Shown here in pieces: positions 26,333 through 63,182 of a DNA stretch of 64,000 nt (positions within the stretch are counted from its first letter, which is position 1; each line of letters opens with the position of its first letter). The notes beneath the pieces are model-generated. The model was not told where the DNA came from, searched no databases, and saw nothing but the letters and a program-made list of their open reading frames with translations. Source of the stretch: Glutamicibacter protophormiae (GTDB lineage: Bacteria > Actinomycetota > Actinomycetes > Actinomycetales > Micrococcaceae); the NCBI RefSeq assembly GCF_014647495.1, contig NZ_BMPH01000001.1, positions 62,001 to 126,000 on the forward strand, given 5' to 3'. Both the position numbers and the translations under genes were made by a program.

Positions 26333-26406
26333 CGCGGGGTGGAGCAGTTCGGTAGCTCGCCGGGCTCATAACCCGGAGGTCAGAGGTTCAAATCCTCTCC
26401 CCGCCA
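26333..26406 (+). tRNA. Initiator tRNA-fMet (CAT), copy 1
   Basis: 74-nt cloverleaf without encoded CCA (ACGA follows). The anticodon loop is CTCATAA, the anticodon stem ends in three G:C pairs (GGG/CCC), and position 1 (C) does not pair with position 72 (C). These are initiator marks. Confidence 0.95.
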
Positions 26407-26414
26407 CGAAGGCC

Positions 26415-26446
26415 AAAAAGACGGAAGCGAAAGCTTCCGTCTTTTT
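26415..26446 (+). terminator. Terminator after tRNA-fMet copy 1
   Basis: AAAAAGACGGAAGC-GAAA-GCTTCCGTC-TTTTT: perfect 14-bp stem, GAAA tetraloop and T-run. The same hairpin follows copy 2. Confidence 0.9.
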
Positions 26447-27277
26447 GCATTCCCAGGCACCTGAACCTGACGTCAAGATCGTGAATCTGGCAGGACAGCT
26501 TCCCCTCATTTGTTATGGACGTCTCGGACGCTGTCTTTCGAGCCGTTCGCAGCCGCCCATTGCAGCCGGCCGGCGGTTTTCCATCATCATTCCCTGCGAA
26601 GTTCAATTGACCGCAATTGGCAGCGTCTCCTCGGGTTCAAGTTAGCGTCGCGGTCCGAACACAAGTTTGGTATCAGGGTCCCGTGACGATTGCAGAATCG
26701 CATCCGAGCCGATAGTGGATTCCAGGGCGGGTGCAGGTGAAGCATTCATCCGCCATGAACTTTGCCAGCGAAGTCCGCAGTAAATTCCCTGCGGCCGGTC
26801 TGACGGCAGAAACCTTGTCCGTCCAGGTTGCGTTCCGTGATCGAGCGCTGATCCGGCCCGCTGCAATGCCACCGGCGCCCGCAACTCGCTTGAGAGCCTT
26901 GCCCAGCCGTGCCGGCCAGGGAAGTGTCCTCCCGGCGGGCGTGGACGTTGCTTGGGCCGCAAACCGGCAAAGAATGGCACCGTCGACAGGCCGAAGGCCA
27001 GGAAGCCAGGGCTCGCAGCCGGCCTCCAGCGTCGCGCACGATAACAAGTGCGACTCGGCCTCGGCGCCTGTGCTCGGAATTCCCGCTCGGCGCACGGCCT
27101 GGGGAACTCTCGGTCGTGTCCTGCTGCTGGACCAAGAGAAGCATTGAGCATCCGTTTTTACCGCTACCTTGAGGCTGGTTGCCGCTTCGATGAACTCCGA
27201 AGGCGACCGGGGTGACGAAGGCCACGGGCGCTCGATTCGCGATTCAGTTTCCTTGTTGGTAATGTTGTATTTACCGA
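26447..27277. other. Spacer A between initiator tRNA copies 1 and 2, no supportable gene
   Basis: 831 bp. Only short open frames with no family resemblance and no good ribosome binding sites. The last ~70 bp (from GGGGTGACGAAGG) resemble the end of the second spacer, and the last 22 bases before the tRNA (TTGGTAATGTTGTATTTACC plus GA) are identical to it. Confidence 0.6.
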
Positions 27278-27351
27278 CGCGGGGTGGAGCAGTTCGGTAG
27301 CTCGCCGGGCTCATAACCCGGAGGTCAGAGGTTCAAATCCTCTCCCCGCCA
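27278..27351 (+). tRNA. Initiator tRNA-fMet (CAT), copy 2
   Basis: Identical in its 74 bases to copies 1 and 3. CTA follows in place of CCA. The upstream GGTAATGTTGTATTTACC, with 5-bp inverted arms, is shared with copy 3 but not copy 1. Confidence 0.95.
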
Positions 27352-27359
27352 CTAAGGCG

Positions 27360-27391
27360 AAAGACGGAAGCGAAAGCTTCCGTCTTTTTTT
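27360..27391 (+). terminator. Terminator after tRNA-fMet copy 2
   Basis: AAGACGGAAGC-GAAA-GCTTCCGTCTT followed by a T-run to 27391; the stem is identical to that after copy 1. Confidence 0.9.
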
Positions 27392-28087
27392 ATTTCCGAA
27401 GCGTATGCACCCACCCCTCGGATCCAATCAGCGCTGCCTCCAAGGCCTCCAGGAACTGCAGCGCGTACGACGGGGCGGCGGCCTCAGCTGGTGGCACCGC
27501 TCGCTCGCCCCCCTTATTGCGGGTCTGGCGGAATCGTTCGCAGGCTCGTCATCGATTGACGCGTGGCAGGCGCCATCCCCTGGTGGATCCAGATGCCATC
27601 AATTCCGACCCCGTCGAAGACCTCGTCGACGCGGCGTGGGGGAGGGGGCACTGTCCGCCAGCAGGCGGTTCAGTAGCGGAAGAGCCACGCGGCTTGCCGC
27701 CTCCGTGATCTGTTGGAGTTTTCCTATTCGCCAACCGGTGGTCCGGGGTGGCCCATTGACCATGTTTGACTCGGGCCGGGCGGCGGTAGGTGGTTGAAGT
27801 GTTGCAGTTGATGCGCCGCGCTCATTGTTGGCCATTGCGCGTTGCCGTTTTCTTTCGGGGATTGACGGACTGTTTGGCTGGAGGTTTTCCGTCTGGGGTT
27901 GCTGTGCGGGGATGGCATCCATGGGCGACTTGGTCCTTTCCAGGCTTTCGGGGGCGGGAGCAGGTTTTCAGGCCTCCTTTATCGCAGTTAGCCCGAGAAA
28001 GAGCCAAGCCGGAATGCGGTGGTGACGAACGACACGTGCCCCGGATTCGCGTTCATGGTTACGCGTTGGTAATGTTGTATTTACCGA
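27392..28087. other. Spacer B between initiator tRNA copies 2 and 3, no supportable gene
   Basis: 696 bp with only small unconvincing frames on both strands. Apart from its two ends it does not visibly match the first spacer. Confidence 0.6.
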
Positions 28088-28161
28088 CGCGGGGTGGAGC
28101 AGTTCGGTAGCTCGCCGGGCTCATAACCCGGAGGTCAGAGGTTCAAATCCTCTCCCCGCCA
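28088..28161 (+). tRNA. Initiator tRNA-fMet (CAT), copy 3
   Basis: Same 74 bases as the other copies. Here the next three bases are CCA (28162-28164), so the 3' end is encoded, unlike copies 1 and 2. Confidence 0.95.
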
Positions 28162-28169
28162 CCAAGGTG

Positions 28170-44073: not shown

Positions 44074-44388
44074 CTAGCTGCGCACGAACTTGAGCTTCCA
44101 CCGCTGCGGTCCTTCTTCGAGGTAGCTGACCTCGAAGGCCGTCTCATCGCGCTGCCGCAGCTGGGCCAGCAGCGGCAGCGGATCATGCGTGGCCGACAGC
44201 ACCAGGCCTGCACCGGGCCGCAGCGAATCCAGCGCGCCGAAGATGGCCGCGTGGCGGACCGCATGGGGGATCGCCTGGACATCGAGCTGGGGGAGGTCCT
44301 CGTCATGCCCGCCGCAGGCGCAGCCGCCCGGCGCGTGCTGCTTCTGGGCTTCTTCCCTGCTGCCGGAAATCTCGATGCGTTCTGCCAT
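44074..44388 (-). CDS. DUF2249-family protein
   Basis: 104 residues from ATG 44388 (GGGAG 6 bases upstream). N-terminal Cys/His cluster GGCACGGHDED, then the DUF2249 core: LDVQAIPHAVRHAAIFGALDSLRPGAGLVLSATHDPLPLLAQL and ending GPQRWKLKFVRS. This family commonly accompanies denitrification and NO-response genes and hemerythrins, which fits its place beside a nitrite reductase locus. It diverges from the COG2345-type regulator gene and shares an operator-like dyad with it. Confidence 0.85.
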   Translation of the reverse strand: MAERIEISGSREEAQKQHAPGGCACGGHDEDLPQLDVQAIPHAVRHAAIFGALDSLRPGAGLVLSATHDPLPLLAQLRQRDETAFEVSYLEEGPQRWKLKFVRS

Positions 44389-44458
44389 GATCTGCTCCCT
44401 TGCCCGGCTCCGGCGTCGCCTCGTGGGGCGCATGCCGGTCCGCGTGGTGCGGTTCGAT

Positions 44459-44530: not shown

Positions 44531-45196
44531 ATGGGCAAAGGACCGGAGGGCGGAGCGCCCCGGCGCAGCGGAGGCGGGCGCGTTCACTCGTCGACCCGCG
44601 AGCGGATACTGTCGCTGGTCGAAATGCGGAACGAGGGCCTGAGCCTGCCTCAGGTGGCCGAGTTTATGGGCCTGCATGAGAACACCGTCCGGAGCCATCT
44701 GGACGCGCTGCTCGCCGACGGGTACGTGCAGCGGGAGTCCGCGCCCGCCGCCGGCCGCGGGCGGCCAGCATGGATCTGGCGGGCCGCGGCGCCAACCCCC
44801 TCGCCGTTCGCCGCGCTGGCCAACGTACTGGCCGACCAGGTGGCGCTGTTCAGCGACAACCCGGCCCGGGCCGGCATCGAGGCCGGCCAGCGCTGGGGCG
44901 CAATGCTGCCAGAAGCCGCCCGGGAAGGCGATGCCCGTGGCGCGGTTCTCGACTCGCTGGCTGCGCTCGGTTTTGCGCCCCGTCTCGAAGCCGACCACAG
45001 CGTGTCGCTGCTCTCCTGCCCGCTGCTCAGCGCGGCCCGGGAGAACCCGCAGGTCATCTGCAACGTGCATCTGGGGATCGTGCGGGGGATCCTGCAGTCC
45101 CGCGGACGGGATCCTGCAGGAAGCCGGATCCTGCCTTTCGCGCTGGAGCACGGCTGCCGCCTTGAACTGTCGCCACAGCGCGAGGGGCAACGATGA
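44531..45196 (+). CDS. COG2345-type winged-helix regulator with cysteine cluster
   Basis: 221 residues. N-terminal HTH (STRERILSLVEMRNEGLSLPQVAEFMGLHENTVRSHLDALLADGYV), then a sensory domain with cysteines in LLSCPLLSAARENPQVICNVH and HGC near the C-terminus. SufR-type relatives use such cysteines for an Fe-S cluster, so an NO- or redox-sensing role is plausible. AAGGAGG sits 9 bases before the start. It is coupled by ATGA to the NnrS-like gene, so it probably controls the nitrite locus. Confidence 0.85.
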   Translation: MGKGPEGGAPRRSGGGRVHSSTRERILSLVEMRNEGLSLPQVAEFMGLHENTVRSHLDALLADGYVQRESAPAAGRGRPAWIWRAAAPTPSPFAALANVLADQVALFSDNPARAGIEAGQRWGAMLPEAAREGDARGAVLDSLAALGFAPRLEADHSVSLLSCPLLSAARENPQVICNVHLGIVRGILQSRGRDPAGSRILPFALEHGCRLELSPQREGQR

Positions 45197-46326
45197 GCCC
45201 GGCCTCCTATGCTGCGCCGTCCAGGCCCAAACGCCGGGGACGGTGGCGCCTGGCCCTGATGCTCCCGGCCGGCCTGTGCCTGCTGGCCGGGCTGGATGCG
45301 GCGCTGATCCTGCTGGATGTACCCGCCCCGGTGCAGATTGCCGCGTGGGGGCCGGCGCATTCGCTGGCCATGGTCTTCGGGTTTGTCGGAGCGCTGATTG
45401 CCTTGGAGCGAGCGGTGGCCTGGGGGCGGGCCGCGGGCTACGCGGCGCCCGTCCTGCTGGCGCTAGGCGGTGGCAGCCAGCTGTTCGCCGCGCCCCGGGC
45501 GCTGACCGGAACGCTGCTGATCCTGGGCATGGCCGCCCTGCTGGCCACCTACTACCCGTTGTGGCGCAGGCAGCGTGCCGACGCGGTGCTGATCCAGATG
45601 CTCGGCGCCTGCGCCGGGCTGGGCGCCACCGTGCTGTACACCGGCGCAGTGGAGATCTCCTTGCTGCTGCCGTGGCTGGCCGCGTTCCTGGTGATGACCA
45701 TCGCCGGGGAACGGGTTGAGCTGGCCCGCATCCAGTTGACCTCGCGCTCGCAAGCCCTGGCGGTGGTCCTCAACGTTGCGCTGCTCATGTCCGCCGCGGC
45801 GTCCACGCTGTTCGTCCAAGCCGGGACCGTGCTCTTCGGTCTGGTGCTGTGCGCACTGGTGCTCTGGCTGGCGGTCAACGACGTCGCGCGGCGCACCGTC
45901 AAGTTGAAGGGCGCGCCGCGCTACATGGCGGCCTGCCTGCTGGCCGGCTACTTCTGGCTGCTGGTTGCCGGCGTCGTCTGGATGCTGGGGTACCCGGCCG
46001 GCTCCGGCGCCTATGATACTGCGGTGCACGCGGTTTTCCTGGGCTTCGTGATGTCCATGATCATGGCCCATGCGCCCACGATCCTGCCGGCCGTACTGGC
46101 CATCGACCTTCCCTACCGCCAGGCCATGTGGCTGCCGGTGATCCTCATGCATGCCGGCTTGGTGATCCGCCTGTGGCTCGGCAACGGGTTGGGTGGGCAG
46201 CTGGCATGGCAGGTCGGTGGTGTTCTCAACGTCGTCGCGCTGCTGCTTTTCGTGTTCGTGGCCCTCGCCAGCGCGTTGCTGGCGCTCGCGTCCGCACCCG
46301 CCTCCGGGAAGGAATCCGTTAAATGA
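45193..46326 (+). CDS. NnrS-like polytopic membrane protein
   Basis: 377 residues, about 12 hydrophobic segments. NnrS-type histidine contexts: WGPAHSLAMVFGFVGALIALERA and DTAVHAVFLGFVMSMIMAHAPTILPAVL. NnrS proteins are haem/copper membrane proteins that protect against nitrosative stress. ATGA overlaps tie it to the regulator gene before and the nitrite reductase fusion after. Confidence 0.78.
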   Translation: MSPASYAAPSRPKRRGRWRLALMLPAGLCLLAGLDAALILLDVPAPVQIAAWGPAHSLAMVFGFVGALIALERAVAWGRAAGYAAPVLLALGGGSQLFAAPRALTGTLLILGMAALLATYYPLWRRQRADAVLIQMLGACAGLGATVLYTGAVEISLLLPWLAAFLVMTIAGERVELARIQLTSRSQALAVVLNVALLMSAAASTLFVQAGTVLFGLVLCALVLWLAVNDVARRTVKLKGAPRYMAACLLAGYFWLLVAGVVWMLGYPAGSGAYDTAVHAVFLGFVMSMIMAHAPTILPAVLAIDLPYRQAMWLPVILMHAGLVIRLWLGNGLGGQLAWQVGGVLNVVALLLFVFVALASALLALASAPASGKESVK

Positions 46327-49037
46327 ACCTGCCGTTGAGCACCGGGCCCGCCGCGGCGAAGGTCCCCGGCCGGGGTTTCTGGCCGCTGCGCGACCTGCCC
46401 ACGGCGCTGTGGCTGATCCTGGTGGTTGTCGTCGCGCTGGTCCACCGCCAGCTGCCGGCGCCCCGCTGGCTGCTGATCCACCTGCTGCTGCTCGGCGCGC
46501 TGTCCCACGCCATTCTGGTCTGGTCGCAGTACTTCGCCACCGCGCTGCTTAAACGCGTGGTGACCGTCCAGGAACGCCGCCGGCAGTCGCTGCGCCTGGG
46601 GCTGATGAACGGCGGCGCCGCCGTGGTGGTTGCCGGGGTGCTTGCCGAACTGTGGCCGTTGACGCTGGCCGGTGCGCTGCTGGTCGCCGCGGCCGCGGCA
46701 TGGCACGGAGCCTGGCTGTACCGCAGCCTGCGCGGCGCGCTGCCCTCGCCCTATGCCGCGAGCGTGCGCTACTACATCGCCGCCGCCTGCTTCCTGCCGA
46801 TCGGCGCCGGGCTGGGAACCTGGATTTCCGCCGGGCTCGCTTCTCCGCTGCATGAGCGGCTGACCTTGGCCCATGCGCTGGTGAACCTGCTGGGCTGGGT
46901 CGGGCTGACCGTCGCCGGAACCCTGATCACGCTGTGGCCCACGATGCTGCGCACCCGCATCGCCACCCATGCCGCGGTGCGCCTGCGCCGGGCGCTGCCG
47001 GTACTCGCAGCCTCGGTGCTGGTGGCCGCGGGCGGGGCGGCCGCGGGACTGCTGCTGGTGGCAGCCCTGGGTGTGCTCGGCTATCTGGCAGGGCTGGGAA
47101 TGACTGCCTCGCCGTTCATCCATGCCGCCAGGGCCAAGCCGCCGCGCAGCTTCGCCACCTTGTCGGTCCTGTCCGCGGTCTGCTGGTGGACGGGCACCCT
47201 GGTGTGGACGCTCTACGCCCTAGCTGCCAGCGGCGACTGGACGCAGATGGGCCGGCACTTCGACACCATCGTGCCGTACCTGGCCGCAGGCTTCGCCGCG
47301 CAGATCCTGCTGGGCGCGCTGTCCTATCTGGTGCCCGTGGCGCTTGGCGGCGGGCCGCGCCCGGTCCGCGCGGCGGCCACGGCCTTCGACCGTGGAGCCG
47401 CCTGGCGGGTGAGCATGGCCAACGCGGCCTTGCTGGCCTGCGCCCTGCCGGTCTCCTCGCTGGTGCGTGTGCTGTGCTCGGTGCTTTACCTCGGCGCCAT
47501 GGGCAGCTTCATCCCCTTGCTCTTCACCGCCTTGAAGGCCCATCGCTTGGCCAAGAAAGAAGCCGCGGAATCCGCAGGCCAGCCGAGGGCCCGCGAGCGC
47601 GGCCCGGTGGAACCCGAAGGCGCCCGCCCGCCCGGCCAACGCCTGGGCCAGGCGGCCGCAGGTCTGATGTCGGTTGTGCTGGTGATCGCCGTCGGCGTAG
47701 CGCTGGATCCCGCGGCCGCCGGGATCCGCCCGCCGGCCGCTTCCACCGCGCAGCAGCCGGTCGACCCTGCCAACGCACCGGTCAAGACCGTGCAGATGAC
47801 CGCCAAGGACATGCGGTTCACACCTTCCACCATCGAGGTGGAAGCAGGAACACGGCTGGTCATCGAATTGGCCAACACTGATGCCGCGCAGGTCCACGAC
47901 CTGGTGCTGGCCAACGGGAGCGACTCCGGGCGCCTGGCGCCGGGCCAGAGCGCCACCGTGGACGCCGGGGTCATCACCGCAGACATGGAGGGCTGGTGCT
48001 CCATCGTCGGGCACAAGCAGATGGGCATGGTGATGCGGATCGTGGTGACCGGCGCCGCCGCCGCCGCCGCCGCACCCGGCGACACGGCACCCGAGACGTC
48101 CCACGGACACCTGCAGGATGCTGGCCAGCCGCCCGCGGCCGCGGGACCCGACCTGCTGGCCCAGCCCGCGGACGGATTCACCGCACGCAACCCGGTAATG
48201 GATCCACTGCCTGCGGACACCGGCAAGCCGGCGCTGCACAAGAAACGCTTCACGGTCAGCGAGCTGCAGGCCGAGGTGTCGCCGGGGTTCACGCAGAACC
48301 TGTGGACCTTCAACGGCACCGCCCCGGGTCCGGTCCTGCACGGACGGATCGGCGACAAATTCGAAATCACGCTCTACAACGACGGCACCATGGGCCACTC
48401 CATCGACTTCCACGCCGGGTCCCTGGCCCCGGACAAACCGATGCGAACCATCGTCCCTGGCGAGGAACTGACCTACACGTTCACTGCCACCAAGTCAGGG
48501 ATCTGGATGTACCACTGCGCCACCGCACCCATGAGCGCGCACATCGCCAACGGCATGTACGGAGCGGTCATCATCGAACCCGAGGACCTGCCCGCGGTGG
48601 ACAAGTCGTATGTGATGGTGCAGTCCGAGTACTACCTCGGCGCGGAAGGGCAACCGGTGGACGTGGACAAGATTGCAGGAGGGAACCCCGATCTGGTGGT
48701 GTTCAACGGCTACGCAAATCAATACTCCTTCGACCCGCTGCAGGTTGCCACCGGTGAACGCATCCGCATCTGGGTACTCGCCGCGGGCCCCAACAGGCCC
48801 AGCAGCTTCCACGTGATCGGCGGCCAGTTCGACACCGTGTACTTCGAAGGCGCCTACCAGCTGGACGCCCGCGATCGAACTGGCGGGGGTTCCCAATCCC
48901 TGGCGTTGGCACCGGCGCAGGGAGGATTCGTGGAACTGGTGCTGCCCGAGGCCGGGAACTACCCGTTCGTCACGCACTACATGTCGGACGGGGAGAAAGG
49001 GGCGCACGGCATGATCAGGGTTTCTGATCCTAACTAG
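46323..49037 (+). CDS. nirK: Membrane-anchored fusion of NnrS-like module, cupredoxin and copper nitrite reductase
   Basis: 904 residues. 1-~415: about 11 membrane segments with conserved His (HLLLLGALSHAILVWSQYF, LAHALVNLLGWVGLTVAGTL). ~443-462: one more helix. ~485-580: cupredoxin with type 1 copper ligands AQVHDLVL and GWCSIVGHKQMGM. ~640-904: two-domain NirK with HSIDFH (~692; type 1 His, Asp98-like, type 2 His), IWMYHCATAPMSAHIANGMYG (type 2 His, then Cys, His, Met of type 1), SFHVIGGQFD and THYMSD. All catalytic ligands are present, so it should reduce nitrite to NO outside the membrane. The N-terminal cupredoxin could donate electrons. Confidence 0.88.
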   Translation: MNLPLSTGPAAAKVPGRGFWPLRDLPTALWLILVVVVALVHRQLPAPRWLLIHLLLLGALSHAILVWSQYFATALLKRVVTVQERRRQSLRLGLMNGGAAVVVAGVLAELWPLTLAGALLVAAAAAWHGAWLYRSLRGALPSPYAASVRYYIAAACFLPIGAGLGTWISAGLASPLHERLTLAHALVNLLGWVGLTVAGTLITLWPTMLRTRIATHAAVRLRRALPVLAASVLVAAGGAAAGLLLVAALGVLGYLAGLGMTASPFIHAARAKPPRSFATLSVLSAVCWWTGTLVWTLYALAASGDWTQMGRHFDTIVPYLAAGFAAQILLGALSYLVPVALGGGPRPVRAAATAFDRGAAWRVSMANAALLACALPVSSLVRVLCSVLYLGAMGSFIPLLFTALKAHRLAKKEAAESAGQPRARERGPVEPEGARPPGQRLGQAAAGLMSVVLVIAVGVALDPAAAGIRPPAASTAQQPVDPANAPVKTVQMTAKDMRFTPSTIEVEAGTRLVIELANTDAAQVHDLVLANGSDSGRLAPGQSATVDAGVITADMEGWCSIVGHKQMGMVMRIVVTGAAAAAAAPGDTAPETSHGHLQDAGQPPAAAGPDLLAQPADGFTARNPVMDPLPADTGKPALHKKRFTVSELQAEVSPGFTQNLWTFNGTAPGPVLHGRIGDKFEITLYNDGTMGHSIDFHAGSLAPDKPMRTIVPGEELTYTFTATKSGIWMYHCATAPMSAHIANGMYGAVIIEPEDLPAVDKSYVMVQSEYYLGAEGQPVDVDKIAGGNPDLVVFNGYANQYSFDPLQVATGERIRIWVLAAGPNRPSSFHVIGGQFDTVYFEGAYQLDARDRTGGGSQSLALAPAQGGFVELVLPEAGNYPFVTHYMSDGEKGAHGMIRVSDPN

Positions 49038-52116: not shown

Positions 52117-52475
52117 TGTACGCCGACGCACGCAACCTCAGCACCGCTCCCACCGACCTGACCCCGCCCGGAGGGCCTGGCCTGGCACCCGCCGAAGGCG
52201 GGCTGCCCGTCGTCGTGATGACTGCCCGTAGCCGTGCTTCGCACTCCAAGAGTTACGAGACCCTCATTCGTTCCTACGGGCGCGGCAAGGGCTTGTCGAT
52301 TGCCGCGCCATGCAACAACGTGCCTGGTCAGCAGCCGGTTCCGCCCTCGCTCCGTCGCGTGGCCTCGTGGGATCATTTTGGGTCTCATTTGGGGGTCAAT
52401 AGGGGGTCATTTAGGCGCCGCACTCCCTCTGAGACCCTCCGCGCCGCCCGCGGCGGGGGTGGTCGCCGTGGCTAA
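52116..52475 (+). CDS. Doubtful small ORF overlapping the replication-origin region
   Basis: 119 codons beginning at the TGATG overlap with the HTH gene and ending 8 bp inside rep. Composition is not protein-like in the second half (it reads the hairpin and direct repeats in front of rep), and nothing is recognised. It may be translated as a leader that couples to rep, or may be chance. Confidence 0.3.
   Translation: MYADARNLSTAPTDLTPPGGPGLAPAEGGLPVVVMTARSRASHSKSYETLIRSYGRGKGLSIAAPCNNVPGQQPVPPSLRRVASWDHFGSHLGVNRGSFRRRTPSETLRAARGGGGRRG
52279..52415 (+). other. Candidate double-strand origin (hairpin plus ~11-bp direct repeats)
   Basis: A hairpin GGCGCGGCA / TGCCGCGCC (52279-52287, 52301-52309; 13-base loop), preceded by TTCCTACGG, is followed about 60 bp later by four ~11-bp tandem repeats at 52369-52415 (units of the form GGGGGTCATTT, GGGGGTCAATA, GGGTCTCATTT, GGATCATTTT). 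In pMV158-type plasmids a nic hairpin lies upstream of three 11-bp Rep-binding repeats and rep. The nic site itself is not assigned. Confidence 0.5.
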
Positions 52476-53880
52476 GCAGGAGAACAACCCGACGAGCATC
52501 GGGCTCACGCAATACCTCGATCCGTCGTACTGGGCCTGGGCTGCCGAGGACCCGAACGGGGCCGCGCTGCTCCAGCAGGGTGCCGAGGCGATCCTCGCCT
52601 ACGTGGTGCAGCGGCTCGAGGCCACCGGCTGCGAGGTCGTCGAGGCCTACGGCATCGTGCACGACAAGGACGAGCGCGAGGTCTGGAGCGACACGGAGAA
52701 GGCCCTGGTGGTCGAATTGAAGCCCGAGCACCTGCACGCCGTGATCAAGTTCGCCAGCCGTGCGAAGAGTGCGCCGCTGGATCGGCTCGCGTTCGGCATC
52801 GGTGTCGAGCCTCAGTACGTCGAGAAGCCTGGCCGCGGGCGGTACGCCTTCGACAACATGCTGTCGTATCTGACGCACGTGAAGTACGCGGACAAGCACC
52901 AGTACGCGCCTTCGGAGGTTGCCACGGTGCGCGGGCCTGAGTATCTCGGGATCGACGCCCAGCGCCGGGAGACGTGGCTGAAGGGCCGCGCCCACGTGAA
53001 GAAGAAGGTCGTCGCCGAGAACTTCGAGGACATGCGGGAGCGCGTGCTCCAGGATGAGATCACGCGGGATCAGATCATGCTCACGGACGAGCTGTTCGAC
53101 ATCTACTCGCGGCATCAGCGGGAGATCGACGACGCGCTGTCGGCCTACGGCCAGCGTCGCGCATACCGGGCAGCGGCGAAGCTCCGCGCCGGTGAGTTCT
53201 CGACGCACGTGGTGTTCGTCCATGGGGATGCCGGGATCGGTAAGACCCGGTTCGCCACGGACTTCATCACCGAGGCGATCAACGCGGCGAACGCGCACGG
53301 CGAACGGTGGCAGGTCTACCGGGCTGCGACGGGGAACCCGCTTGATGACTGGCGAGGCGAGGAGGTGCTGCTGCTGGACGATCTGCGGGCCTCGGCGATG
53401 GATGCGAACGACTGGCTGCTGCTGCTTGATCCGTACAACGCCTCGCCTGCGAAGGCTCGGTACAAGAACAAGGGCGAGGTGGCCCCGCGGCTCATCGTCA
53501 TCACGGCGACGATCGAGCCTGTCGAGTTCTTCTACTACGCCCGCCAGAAGGGCAACGTGGACGAGGCGCTGGACCAGTTCATCCGCCGCTTGGCCTCGGT
53601 CGTGAAGGTCTATCGTGCCGACGACATCAATCGTTACCTCGTGCAGCACATCGGGAAGATCGAGCCCTACGAGTGGCACCAGTGCAGCATCCCGACCGCC
53701 GCACACACGCCCGGCATGTACGGCAACGCGTATCACCAGAACGTCGGGTCGCGGGAACTGACCTACGGTCCGGAGACCTCGGCGGAACATGACGCGGAGG
53801 GCGCGGTTGCTGAGCTGCTGGGCGGGCTCGCGGTGCGGAGCCCTGACGTGCCGCTGGCGCTGATCGGAGGTGCCGCATGA
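52468..53880 (+). CDS. rep: Rolling-circle replication initiator: HUH endonuclease fused to SF3-type helicase
   Basis: 470 residues from GTG 52468 (MAKQENNPTS); longer starts are possible in the same frame. N-terminal Rep_2-like HUH domain: metal-binding EHLHAVIKF and the catalytic Tyr at ~134 in SYLTHVKYADKHQY. C-terminal AAA/SF3 helicase: Walker A VFVHGDAGIGKTRFA (~253), Walker B EEVLLLDDLRAS and RLIVITATI. The same two-domain layout is found in CRESS-DNA virus Reps and some bacterial plasmids. It probably nicks and unwinds the element's circular form. Last bases ATGA overlap mobC. Confidence 0.85.
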   Translation: MAKQENNPTSIGLTQYLDPSYWAWAAEDPNGAALLQQGAEAILAYVVQRLEATGCEVVEAYGIVHDKDEREVWSDTEKALVVELKPEHLHAVIKFASRAKSAPLDRLAFGIGVEPQYVEKPGRGRYAFDNMLSYLTHVKYADKHQYAPSEVATVRGPEYLGIDAQRRETWLKGRAHVKKKVVAENFEDMRERVLQDEITRDQIMLTDELFDIYSRHQREIDDALSAYGQRRAYRAAAKLRAGEFSTHVVFVHGDAGIGKTRFATDFITEAINAANAHGERWQVYRAATGNPLDDWRGEEVLLLDDLRASAMDANDWLLLLDPYNASPAKARYKNKGEVAPRLIVITATIEPVEFFYYARQKGNVDEALDQFIRRLASVVKVYRADDINRYLVQHIGKIEPYEWHQCSIPTAAHTPGMYGNAYHQNVGSRELTYGPETSAEHDAEGAVAELLGGLAVRSPDVPLALIGGAA

Positions 53881-61541: not shown

Positions 61542-63182
61542 ATGACTCGCAAGAAGAACGGGCTGCGACTCGCCGCGGCCGCTTTGGGAATTTCCGCCCT
61601 CGCACTGACCGGCTGCACCTCTTCCGCCTCCAATGACGGCGACGCATCGGGTGCGCCAAGCGGCGACGCATCAGGCGCGCCGATCACCTTGGGAACCACG
61701 GACAAGGTCACCTCGCTCGACCCGGCCGGCTCCTATGACAATGGTTCATTCATGGTCATGAACCAGATCTTCCCGTTCCTGCTGAACTCCGAGCCGGGCA
61801 GCCCTGAACCCTCGAACGACCTGGCCGAGTCCGCCGAGTTCACCTCGGACAAGGAATTCACCGTGAAGCTGAAGCCGGGGTTGAAGTGGGCCAACGGCAA
61901 CGATCTTGACTCCAAGGACGTGAAGTTCACCTTCGACCGCCAGCTGAAGATCGCGGACCCCAACGGCCCGTCCTCGCTGCTGGGCAACGTCGAGTCCATC
62001 ACCGCACCGGATGCCACTACCGTGGTCTTCAAGCTCAAGGTCGCCAACGACCAGACCTTCCCGCAGGTGCTCACCTCGCCGGTCGGCCCGATCGTGGATG
62101 ACGAGGTCTTCCCGGCCGACAAGGTGATGGCCGATGAGGAAATCGTCGCAGGCAAGGCCTTCGGCGGCCAGTACGTGATCGACTCGTACAACAAGAACAG
62201 CCTGATCTCGATGTCGGCCAACGACGCCTACGCCGGCGTGCTCGGCGCACCGGCCAACAAGTCGGCCGCCATCAAGTACTACGCGGATTCGAACAACCTG
62301 AAGCTGGACGTCCAGCAGGGCAACATCGATGTCGCGTATCGTTCGCTGACCCCGACCGACGTGGAGGACTTGGGCAAGGACAGCAACCTCGTGGTCCACA
62401 AGGGCCCGGGCGGCGAGCTGCGCTACATCGTGTTCAACTTCGACACCATGCCGTACGGCGCCAAGACCGCGGACGCTGATGCCGCGAAGTCGCTGGCCGT
62501 GCGCCAGGCCGCCGCGAACCTGATCGACCGCGAGGCCATCGCCAGCGAGGTCTACAAGGGCACCTACACCCCGGCCTACTCCTACGTGCCGCAGGGCTTC
62601 ACCGGCGCCATCGAGCCGTTGAAGGAGCTGTACGGCACCGACGGCAAGCCGGATGCCGCCAAGGCGAAGAAGGTCTTGGAGGATGCCGGCGTCGACATCC
62701 CGGTCAGCCTTCCGCTGCAGTACAACCCGGACCACTATGGCCCGAGCTCGGGCGACGAGTACGCCCTGGTGAAGAAGCAGCTGGAGGCCGACGGCCTGTT
62801 CAAGGTCGACCTGAAGTCCACCGAATGGGTCACCTACCAGAAGCAGCGCGTCACCGACTACCCGGCCTACCAGCTGGGCTGGTTCCCTGACTACTCGGAC
62901 GCCGACAACTACCTGTCGCCGTTCTTCGCCAAGGACAACTTCCTGTCGAACAACTACGACAACCCGGCGGTCGACAAGCTGATCTCGGAGCAGCGCGGCA
63001 TGGCCGACGCGGCCGAGCGCACCAAGGCCATCGAGGACCTGCAGACCATGGTCGCCAAGGACCTCTCCACCCTGCCGCTGCTGCAGGGCGCGCAGGTCGC
63101 CGTGGCGGGCAAGGACGTGCAGGGAGTCGAGAAGACCCTGGACCCGTCGTTCAAGTTCCGCTTGGGCGTTCTGAGCAAGTAA
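61542..63182 (+). CDS. Oligopeptide/dipeptide ABC transporter substrate-binding lipoprotein
   Basis: 546 residues from ATG 61542 (AAGGA seven bases upstream; the open frame extends 16 codons further). Lipobox LALTGC after an Arg/Lys-rich signal peptide, a Ser/Gly/Asp linker with a repeated GDASGAP, then SBP_bac_5: TSLDPAGSYDNGSFMVMNQIFPFL, LKPGLKWANGNDLDSKDVKFTFDR and RQAAANLIDREAIASEVYKG. Captures peptides or similar solutes for the permease encoded next. Confidence 0.92.
   Translation: MTRKKNGLRLAAAALGISALALTGCTSSASNDGDASGAPSGDASGAPITLGTTDKVTSLDPAGSYDNGSFMVMNQIFPFLLNSEPGSPEPSNDLAESAEFTSDKEFTVKLKPGLKWANGNDLDSKDVKFTFDRQLKIADPNGPSSLLGNVESITAPDATTVVFKLKVANDQTFPQVLTSPVGPIVDDEVFPADKVMADEEIVAGKAFGGQYVIDSYNKNSLISMSANDAYAGVLGAPANKSAAIKYYADSNNLKLDVQQGNIDVAYRSLTPTDVEDLGKDSNLVVHKGPGGELRYIVFNFDTMPYGAKTADADAAKSLAVRQAAANLIDREAIASEVYKGTYTPAYSYVPQGFTGAIEPLKELYGTDGKPDAAKAKKVLEDAGVDIPVSLPLQYNPDHYGPSSGDEYALVKKQLEADGLFKVDLKSTEWVTYQKQRVTDYPAYQLGWFPDYSDADNYLSPFFAKDNFLSNNYDNPAVDKLISEQRGMADAAERTKAIEDLQTMVAKDLSTLPLLQGAQVAVAGKDVQGVEKTLDPSFKFRLGVLSK

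Follow-up and report, generated by a model that had tools for sequence, protein, structure and literature searches.

A membrane-bound three-part copper nitrite reductase of Glutamicibacter protophormiae with a predicted haem-copper oxidase fold in its transmembrane module

How the copper nitrite reductase NirK is supplied with electrons in Gram-positive bacteria without a soluble cytochrome c is an open question, and it is raised directly by a locus of Glutamicibacter protophormiae. The window examined here is a stretch of 64,000 nucleotides that covers positions 62,001–126,000 of the forward strand of contig NZ_BMPH01000001.1 (assembly GCF_014647495.1), and all coordinates below are positions in this window. 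It encodes a 904-residue protein in which a membrane module, a thirteenth helix, a four-ligand cupredoxin and a NirK domain complete in its copper ligands follow one another (Table 1), an arrangement that is confirmed at the level of the sequence. The first-pass annotation had divided this protein into a membrane module, an extra cupredoxin and NirK, and had placed every type 1 and type 2 copper ligand in it; the open reading frame, the domain matches and the structure model bear out the division, and the ligands are indeed all there.

The homology to two-cupredoxin-domain NirK spans the whole enzyme part, both by the TIGR02376 model and by alignment with nitrite reductases of the Protein Data Bank (PDB). 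TIGR02376 (copper nitrite reductase) matches residues 627–901 with an E-value of 2e-48, covering model positions 16–311 of 326; the score of 165.4 bits is below the curated cut-off of 296.3 bits, which is an annotation threshold and not a biochemical feature. Among the PDB nitrite reductases that align over the NirK part, the best is 2dv6 (E = 1.1e-49, query residues 481–904). Like the soluble part of the present protein, 2dv6, presumably from Hyphomicrobium, consists of a cupredoxin followed by NirK, but it is a 447-residue chain that has no membrane module. The preceding cupredoxin is matched by Cupredoxin_1 (PF13473) over residues 484–547 (E = 5.6e-11). All nine NirK residues that we take to be copper ligands or catalytic are present: H692, C732, H740 and M745 for the type 1 copper, H697, H731 and H885 for the type 2 copper, and D695 and H830 for catalysis.

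Conservation of these residues was assessed in 44 loci, a count that leaves out L001 (the locus itself) and L002 and L003, which are other multicopper-oxidase-like frames of the same genome. The four cupredoxin ligands are kept in every one of them, as are eight of the nine NirK residues. The ninth, M745, is kept in 41 and is replaced by leucine in L013, L029 and L031, where the change would be expected to alter the colour and the potential of the type 1 copper. Such conservation, across 44 loci of many genera, cannot be attributed to chance.

Table 1. Coordinates of the three-part nitrite reductase, its parts and the adjoining genes
Feature	Position	Strand	Evidence
Three-part membrane copper nitrite reductase, 904 amino acids	46323..49037	+	Open reading frame and translation, domain matches
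12-helix membrane module, residues 1–440, predicted haem-copper oxidase subunit I fold	46323..47642	+	Structure model
His53, module helix 2	46479..46481	+	His in 78/78 aligned modules, including own
His184, module helix 6	46872..46874	+	His in 78/78 aligned modules, including own
13th hydrophobic helix, residues 443–461, before the cupredoxin	47649..47705	+	Hydropathy 2.25
Cupredoxin, residues ~484–575, type 1 copper ligands H525, C559, H564, M569	47772..48047	+	Pfam PF13473, ligand conservation
NirK domain, residues ~627–904	48201..49034	+	TIGR02376, PDB alignments, conservation
Upstream NnrS-like membrane protein, 377 amino acids	45193..46326	+	Model, alignment A2
Winged-helix regulator, 221 amino acids, leading gene of the apparent operon of three	44531..45196	+	Weak helix-turn-helix matches
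DUF2249 protein adjoining the operon	44074..44433	-	PF10006, E 2.2e-23

The architecture as such is already known. Decleyre et al. (2016; PMC4770552) described it for the NirK of Propionibacterium acnes, whose transmembrane domain they left "of unknown function". As far as that description goes, the two proteins have in common a length of about 900 residues, an N-terminal transmembrane domain of 400 residues, a cupredoxin with the motif CX4HX4M, and NirK; set against the published description rather than against the sequence, the G. protophormiae protein displays no architectural difference, with the spacing of C559, H564 and M569 fitting the motif and twelve helices in the module. Literature searches, which were thin on subscription journals, returned no published fold or function for the NirK transmembrane module, no more recent study of it and no structure of NnrS. 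The apparently new part, then, comprises an oxidase-like fold predicted for the transmembrane domain, its two invariant histidines, and its relatives and their gene context, including unfused modules near copper enzymes.

The fold was predicted from an alignment of 43 modules (A1), which comprises the module itself and those of 42 of the 44 loci; L017, in which the module is cut, was omitted, and so were L004, at 98% identity, and L001, the entry of the locus itself. The model of residues 1–440 has a predicted local distance difference test (pLDDT) score of 91.8 and contains 14 helix elements, counted as 12 membrane helices. In VIA-align 2 it superposes on the cbb3 oxidase subunit CcoN (8smr_E; Z 30.5, root mean square deviation (rmsd) 3.4, 384 residues aligned) and on the nitric oxide (NO) reductase subunit NorB (4xyd_A; Z 28.6, rmsd 3.5, 372 aligned), and all 50 matches listed belong to the haem-copper oxidase superfamily. 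The best Foldseek match is likewise to CcoN (E = 2.5e-4), and 48 of the 50 Foldseek matches listed are haem-copper oxidases or NO reductases, the other two having probabilities of 0.13 and 0.05. The module is thus predicted to adopt the fold of haem-copper oxidase subunit I along its whole length, at an identity of about 10% to CcoN and NorB. Sequence searches gave no sign of this relationship. COX1 (PF00115) has no match in the 904-residue frame at E ≤ 1, and a COX1 search of the whole genome also missed the frame; a PDB sequence search with the module profile returned nothing relevant (three matches, best E 0.04, sugar transporters); and hhalign comparisons with NorB, CtaD and an unrelated transporter stayed within the range of the decoys. 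These decoys came from 11 comparisons with reversed alignments, with up to four alignments each; the best of them scored 30.2 (the module against itself reversed), the second alignment of that same pair 29.8, and all others at most 24.3.

In the oxidase superfamily, helices 2 and 10 hold the low-spin haem, helix 10 also holds the high-spin haem, and the ligands of the copper come from helices 6 and 7. CcoN and NorB have six histidines for this purpose; the module, with positions assigned by helix order, keeps two. To be exact, His53 and His184 are the only histidines invariant in an alignment of 78 modules, made up of the 43 of A1, 29 modules from the phylum-scan loci L084–L112 (fused and unfused) and six rhizobial proteins. 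Helices 7 and 10 contain no conserved histidine in these 78 sequences. His128 was considered as a key ligand and ruled out, being histidine in just 48 of them. With only two invariant histidines among 78 modules, the six-histidine site of oxidases and NO reductases appears to be absent, as judged by helix order rather than by superposition of residues. The proposal that the protein handles its own NO is accordingly left unsupported, all the more so as the genome encodes a separate flavohaemoglobin.

The gene immediately upstream encodes a second membrane protein, and its stop overlaps the start of the nitrite reductase gene by four bases. A model built on its own alignment (A2; pLDDT 92.1) resembles CcoN (8smr_E; Z 27.3, rmsd 3.5, 343 aligned) and NorB (4xyd; Z 25.5, rmsd 4.0, 346 aligned), although its best Foldseek E-value is 1.4e-3 and no match reaches 0.001. 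This protein, too, is predicted to share the haem-copper oxidase fold over its whole length. According to A2, its H279 and H293 are invariant and H56 is nearly so, and helices 6 and 7 contain no conserved histidine; by helix order, it retains the histidine pair of helices 2 and 10, so that H56 and H279 are a candidate haem b pair. The resemblance between the module and this neighbour, which had been pointed out before, is clear in the predicted folds and marginal in sequence. A first hhalign setting, without decoys, gave a score of 37.8 (E = 5.6e-4, probability 30%), and in our own run with decoys the score was 30.1, against 30.2 for the best decoy.

The label "NnrS-like" that was originally given to the module proves to be a fair lead and nothing beyond that: the NnrS matches are weak, and what the two proteins share is the predicted oxidase fold. 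Pfam NnrS (PF05940) finds no match in the module, which lacks the helix 10 histidine of NnrS, and matches the upstream protein over its full length at 10.2 bits, below the curated 28. Across the relatives it picks up 4 of the 43 membrane modules, at best with E = 0.044 and fewer than the six picked up by the unrelated-looking DUF373, and 9 of the 24 upstream proteins, at best with E = 8.4e-4. In hhalign, the upstream protein scores 29.2 against NnrS in the first setting and 24.6 in the run with decoys, and the helix 10 histidine His279 is paired with the invariant His312 of NnrS in a match that does not rise above the decoys. The module scores 21.2 against true NnrS, with 20.8 for the corresponding decoy, and this match is not above decoys either. 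True NnrS itself is rare in the phylum, with 2 of 198 sampled genomes positive at E ≤ 0.01 and none above the curated cut-off.

Module, cupredoxin and NirK stay linked in the 44 loci whether or not they are fused. The nearest named relative of the complete protein in one scanned collection is that of Glutamicibacter soli, which is 98% identical over the protein. Fusion of the module to cupredoxin-NirK is found in 31 of the 44 loci and separate genes in 13, namely in 10 Corynebacterium, 2 Cellulomonas and one Mycobacteriaceae bin. In all 13 the module gene is still near the unfused NirK frame, and in all 13 that frame has a hydrophobic stretch ahead of the cupredoxin, at the place where the fusion has its thirteenth helix. 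The fetched stretch includes a gene for the upstream protein in 24 of the 44 loci; of the 20 genomes left, 4 encode it at another place. Two of the loci deserve separate mention. L017 (Brevibacterium sp. 239c, around 6073), counted here as fused, is missing about the first two thirds of the module from the frame, and L008, filed as an Acidobacteria metagenome bin, has the same fused protein at 49% identity and may be mis-binned.

In a wider scan, 41 of the 296 genomes sampled from the phylum contained the module, including that of G. protophormiae itself, whose locus (L083) was left out of the 78-module alignment; 11 other genomes yielded no locus. Twenty regions around unfused modules were fetched with flanks, several of them ended by contig ends, and were searched for neighbouring genes with 10 protein probes and four profiles. 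NirK is encoded close to the unfused module in five (L117, L123, L126, L128 and L132), in three of these above the TIGR02376 cut-off, in L123 with 294.6 bits against the required 296.3, and in L117 with 173.7. The L126 region encodes the module, a cupredoxin-like protein and NirK in three adjacent genes; the NirK beside the module in L123, L128 and L132 has an amicyanin/plastocyanin-like, that is, cupredoxin-like, domain at its C-terminus, its cupredoxin-family matches all being below the cut-offs. Two further regions (L114 and L125) have a cupredoxin/multicopper-oxidase-like gene near the module, and another two (L124 and L129) an upstream-type protein together with DUF2249. None of these neighbours was found in the stretch read of the other 11 regions; in L118, which is one of them, there is a cupredoxin-like match about 5 kb away.

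Outside the phylum, a relative was recognized in rhizobia. A membrane protein of 450 residues without a name is encoded in rhizobial nirK/nnrS/hemN clusters (L053, 18232–19590 on the minus strand; L067, 3001–4353; L070, 3001–4350), and in L067 and L070 its gene is flanked by two DUF2249 genes and one for a metal-sulfur cluster assembly factor. The module profile matches it in register with a score of 43.9 (E = 7.9e-5; best decoy 30.2), which identifies it, on the strength of the profile match, as a probable relative of the module. The best-scoring alignment of the two (52.1) is shifted by four helices; despite that shift, hhalign comparison of the module with itself detected no internal repeats. 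The rhizobial protein has the same invariant histidines in helices 2 and 6, and differs from the G. protophormiae protein in being unfused and in having a longer C-terminus.

The host genome, of 3.83 Mb, encodes the nitrate reductase NarG, one flavohaemoglobin and one COX1-family protein, which reads as an aa3-type subunit; no NO reductase of the COX1 family was found in it. When two cytochrome c models were applied, a single protein exceeded their cut-offs. It is 269 residues long and dihaem, with two haem c domains, and its gene lies between COX3-like and Rieske-like frames (named from their sequences); one further match, to one of the models, stays below the cut-off, at 18.9 bits. These two models revealed no soluble cytochrome c that could act as the donor, other kinds of c-type cytochrome not having been searched for. 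The NO-reductase marker PF22085 is present in 7 of the 44 genomes with this NirK and was not found in 37, an absence made uncertain by the several metagenome bins among them.

These data lead us to a picture that we consider evenly balanced between right and wrong, in which the protein would reside in the cytoplasmic membrane as a respiratory copper nitrite reductase. The twelve-helix module, with its predicted oxidase fold and incomplete oxidase site, and the thirteenth helix would hold the cupredoxin and NirK on the outer face. Electrons of the menaquinol pool would pass through the module to the type 1 copper of the cupredoxin, probably with help from the upstream NnrS-like protein and its candidate haem b pair, and from there to the type 1 and then the type 2 copper of NirK, where nitrite delivered by nitrate reductase would be reduced to NO. 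We infer the entry of electrons from the membrane as the likeliest route on three grounds: the fold predicted for the module, the fact that its linkage to cupredoxin and NirK recurs in several gene orders, and the failure to find a soluble cytochrome c. A further step, that the module and the upstream protein, both as catalytically retired oxidase folds, together form a haem-bearing menaquinol:cupredoxin oxidoreductase that drives NirK, is put forward tentatively. The earlier suggestion of a quinol- or haem-linked enzyme stays possible in this form, with the qualification that the usual bis-histidine haem pair is found in the upstream protein and not in the module, so that haem may be present in the one or the other.

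Several observations weigh against this picture. With no conserved histidine in its helix 10, the module is not expected to bind an oxidase-type bis-histidine haem. In 16 of the 44 genomes no upstream protein was found; it therefore cannot be essential everywhere, which makes it a possible, not an obligatory, partner. In 13 of the 20 unfused-module regions there is no NirK-like match in the stretch read. Finally, the cupredoxin could receive electrons directly from the dihaem cytochrome. This last point leads to a possible, if doubtful, explanation, by which the module serves just as an anchor and assembly platform and the cupredoxin is supplied by the membrane-bound cytochrome bcc complex, by way of the dihaem cytochrome c of that complex. 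It would agree with the retention of two out of six oxidase histidines and with the only c-type cytochrome above the cut-offs, which reads as QcrC with a hydrophobic C-terminus (both the name and the helix being read from the sequence). Yet twelve helices and two histidines invariant in 78 of 78 modules exceed what an anchor needs, and the unfused NirK frames, 13 in number, contain their own hydrophobic stretch and still keep the module gene nearby.

The module might instead be a part for NO protection or sensing in the manner of NnrS, which would bind the NO made by NirK and protect the cell without carrying electrons. The NnrS matches, weak but repeated, speak for this, as do the rhizobial clusters in which a related gene is found with nnrS, nirK and DUF2249 genes, and the 37 genomes without a detected NO-reductase marker. 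We nevertheless regard it as unlikely: the comparison of the module with true NnrS is not above decoys, the host has its flavohaemoglobin, and two unfused modules are near a cupredoxin/multicopper-oxidase-like gene rather than a nitrite reductase. Least credible of all is that a single operon would lead from nitrite to N2O, with the module acting as an unusual NO reductase either by itself or together with the upstream protein. The predicted fold is that of NorB, the one COX1-family protein of the host reads as aa3-type, and the marker was not found in the same 37 genomes, but conserved histidines are missing from helices 7 and 10 of the module and from helices 6 and 7 of the upstream protein, and seven genomes contain both this NirK and the NO-reductase marker. 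An NO-reducing role of the module is unlikely on its ligands, and this reading was rejected on that ground.

The nitrite reductase gene is the last of an apparent operon of three, and the regulator gene at its head also overlaps the gene that follows it by four bases. Two Pfam models reach their cut-offs in the regulator (HTH_IclR, 24.6 bits; HTH_24, 22.1 bits), and a second library, NCBIfam, has none that does. The DUF2249 family adjoins the operon here, on the opposite strand, and is likewise a neighbour of the related gene in rhizobia. Immediately downstream of the nitrite reductase region, the window encodes a large serine recombinase (PF00239, PF07508; 50038–51474, plus strand) and, further on, a plasmid-type replication protein (Rep_OBD, RNA_helicase; 52234–53880, plus strand), which likely represent an integrated mobile element or its remains. 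Elsewhere in the window there are three tRNA-Met genes (26333–28164, plus strand), all with anticodon CAT and the same Rfam score, spaced by 0.8–0.95 kb.

A predicted fold can now be given to a domain that was called "of unknown function" in 2016 (PMC4770552, as far as that account goes), and the domain can be linked to a gene without a name in rhizobial nirK clusters. If most of the genomes with this NirK truly have no NO reductase, they would release NO and not N2O. A module of oxidase fold attached to NirK is a direct candidate for feeding it with electrons, and one that can be tested by spectroscopy and by mutation of two residues. Should the proposed oxidoreductase prove real, it would constitute a route from quinol to nitrite reductase without any cytochrome c, kept in fused or separate form across the Actinomycetota, with a related module in the denitrification clusters of rhizobia.

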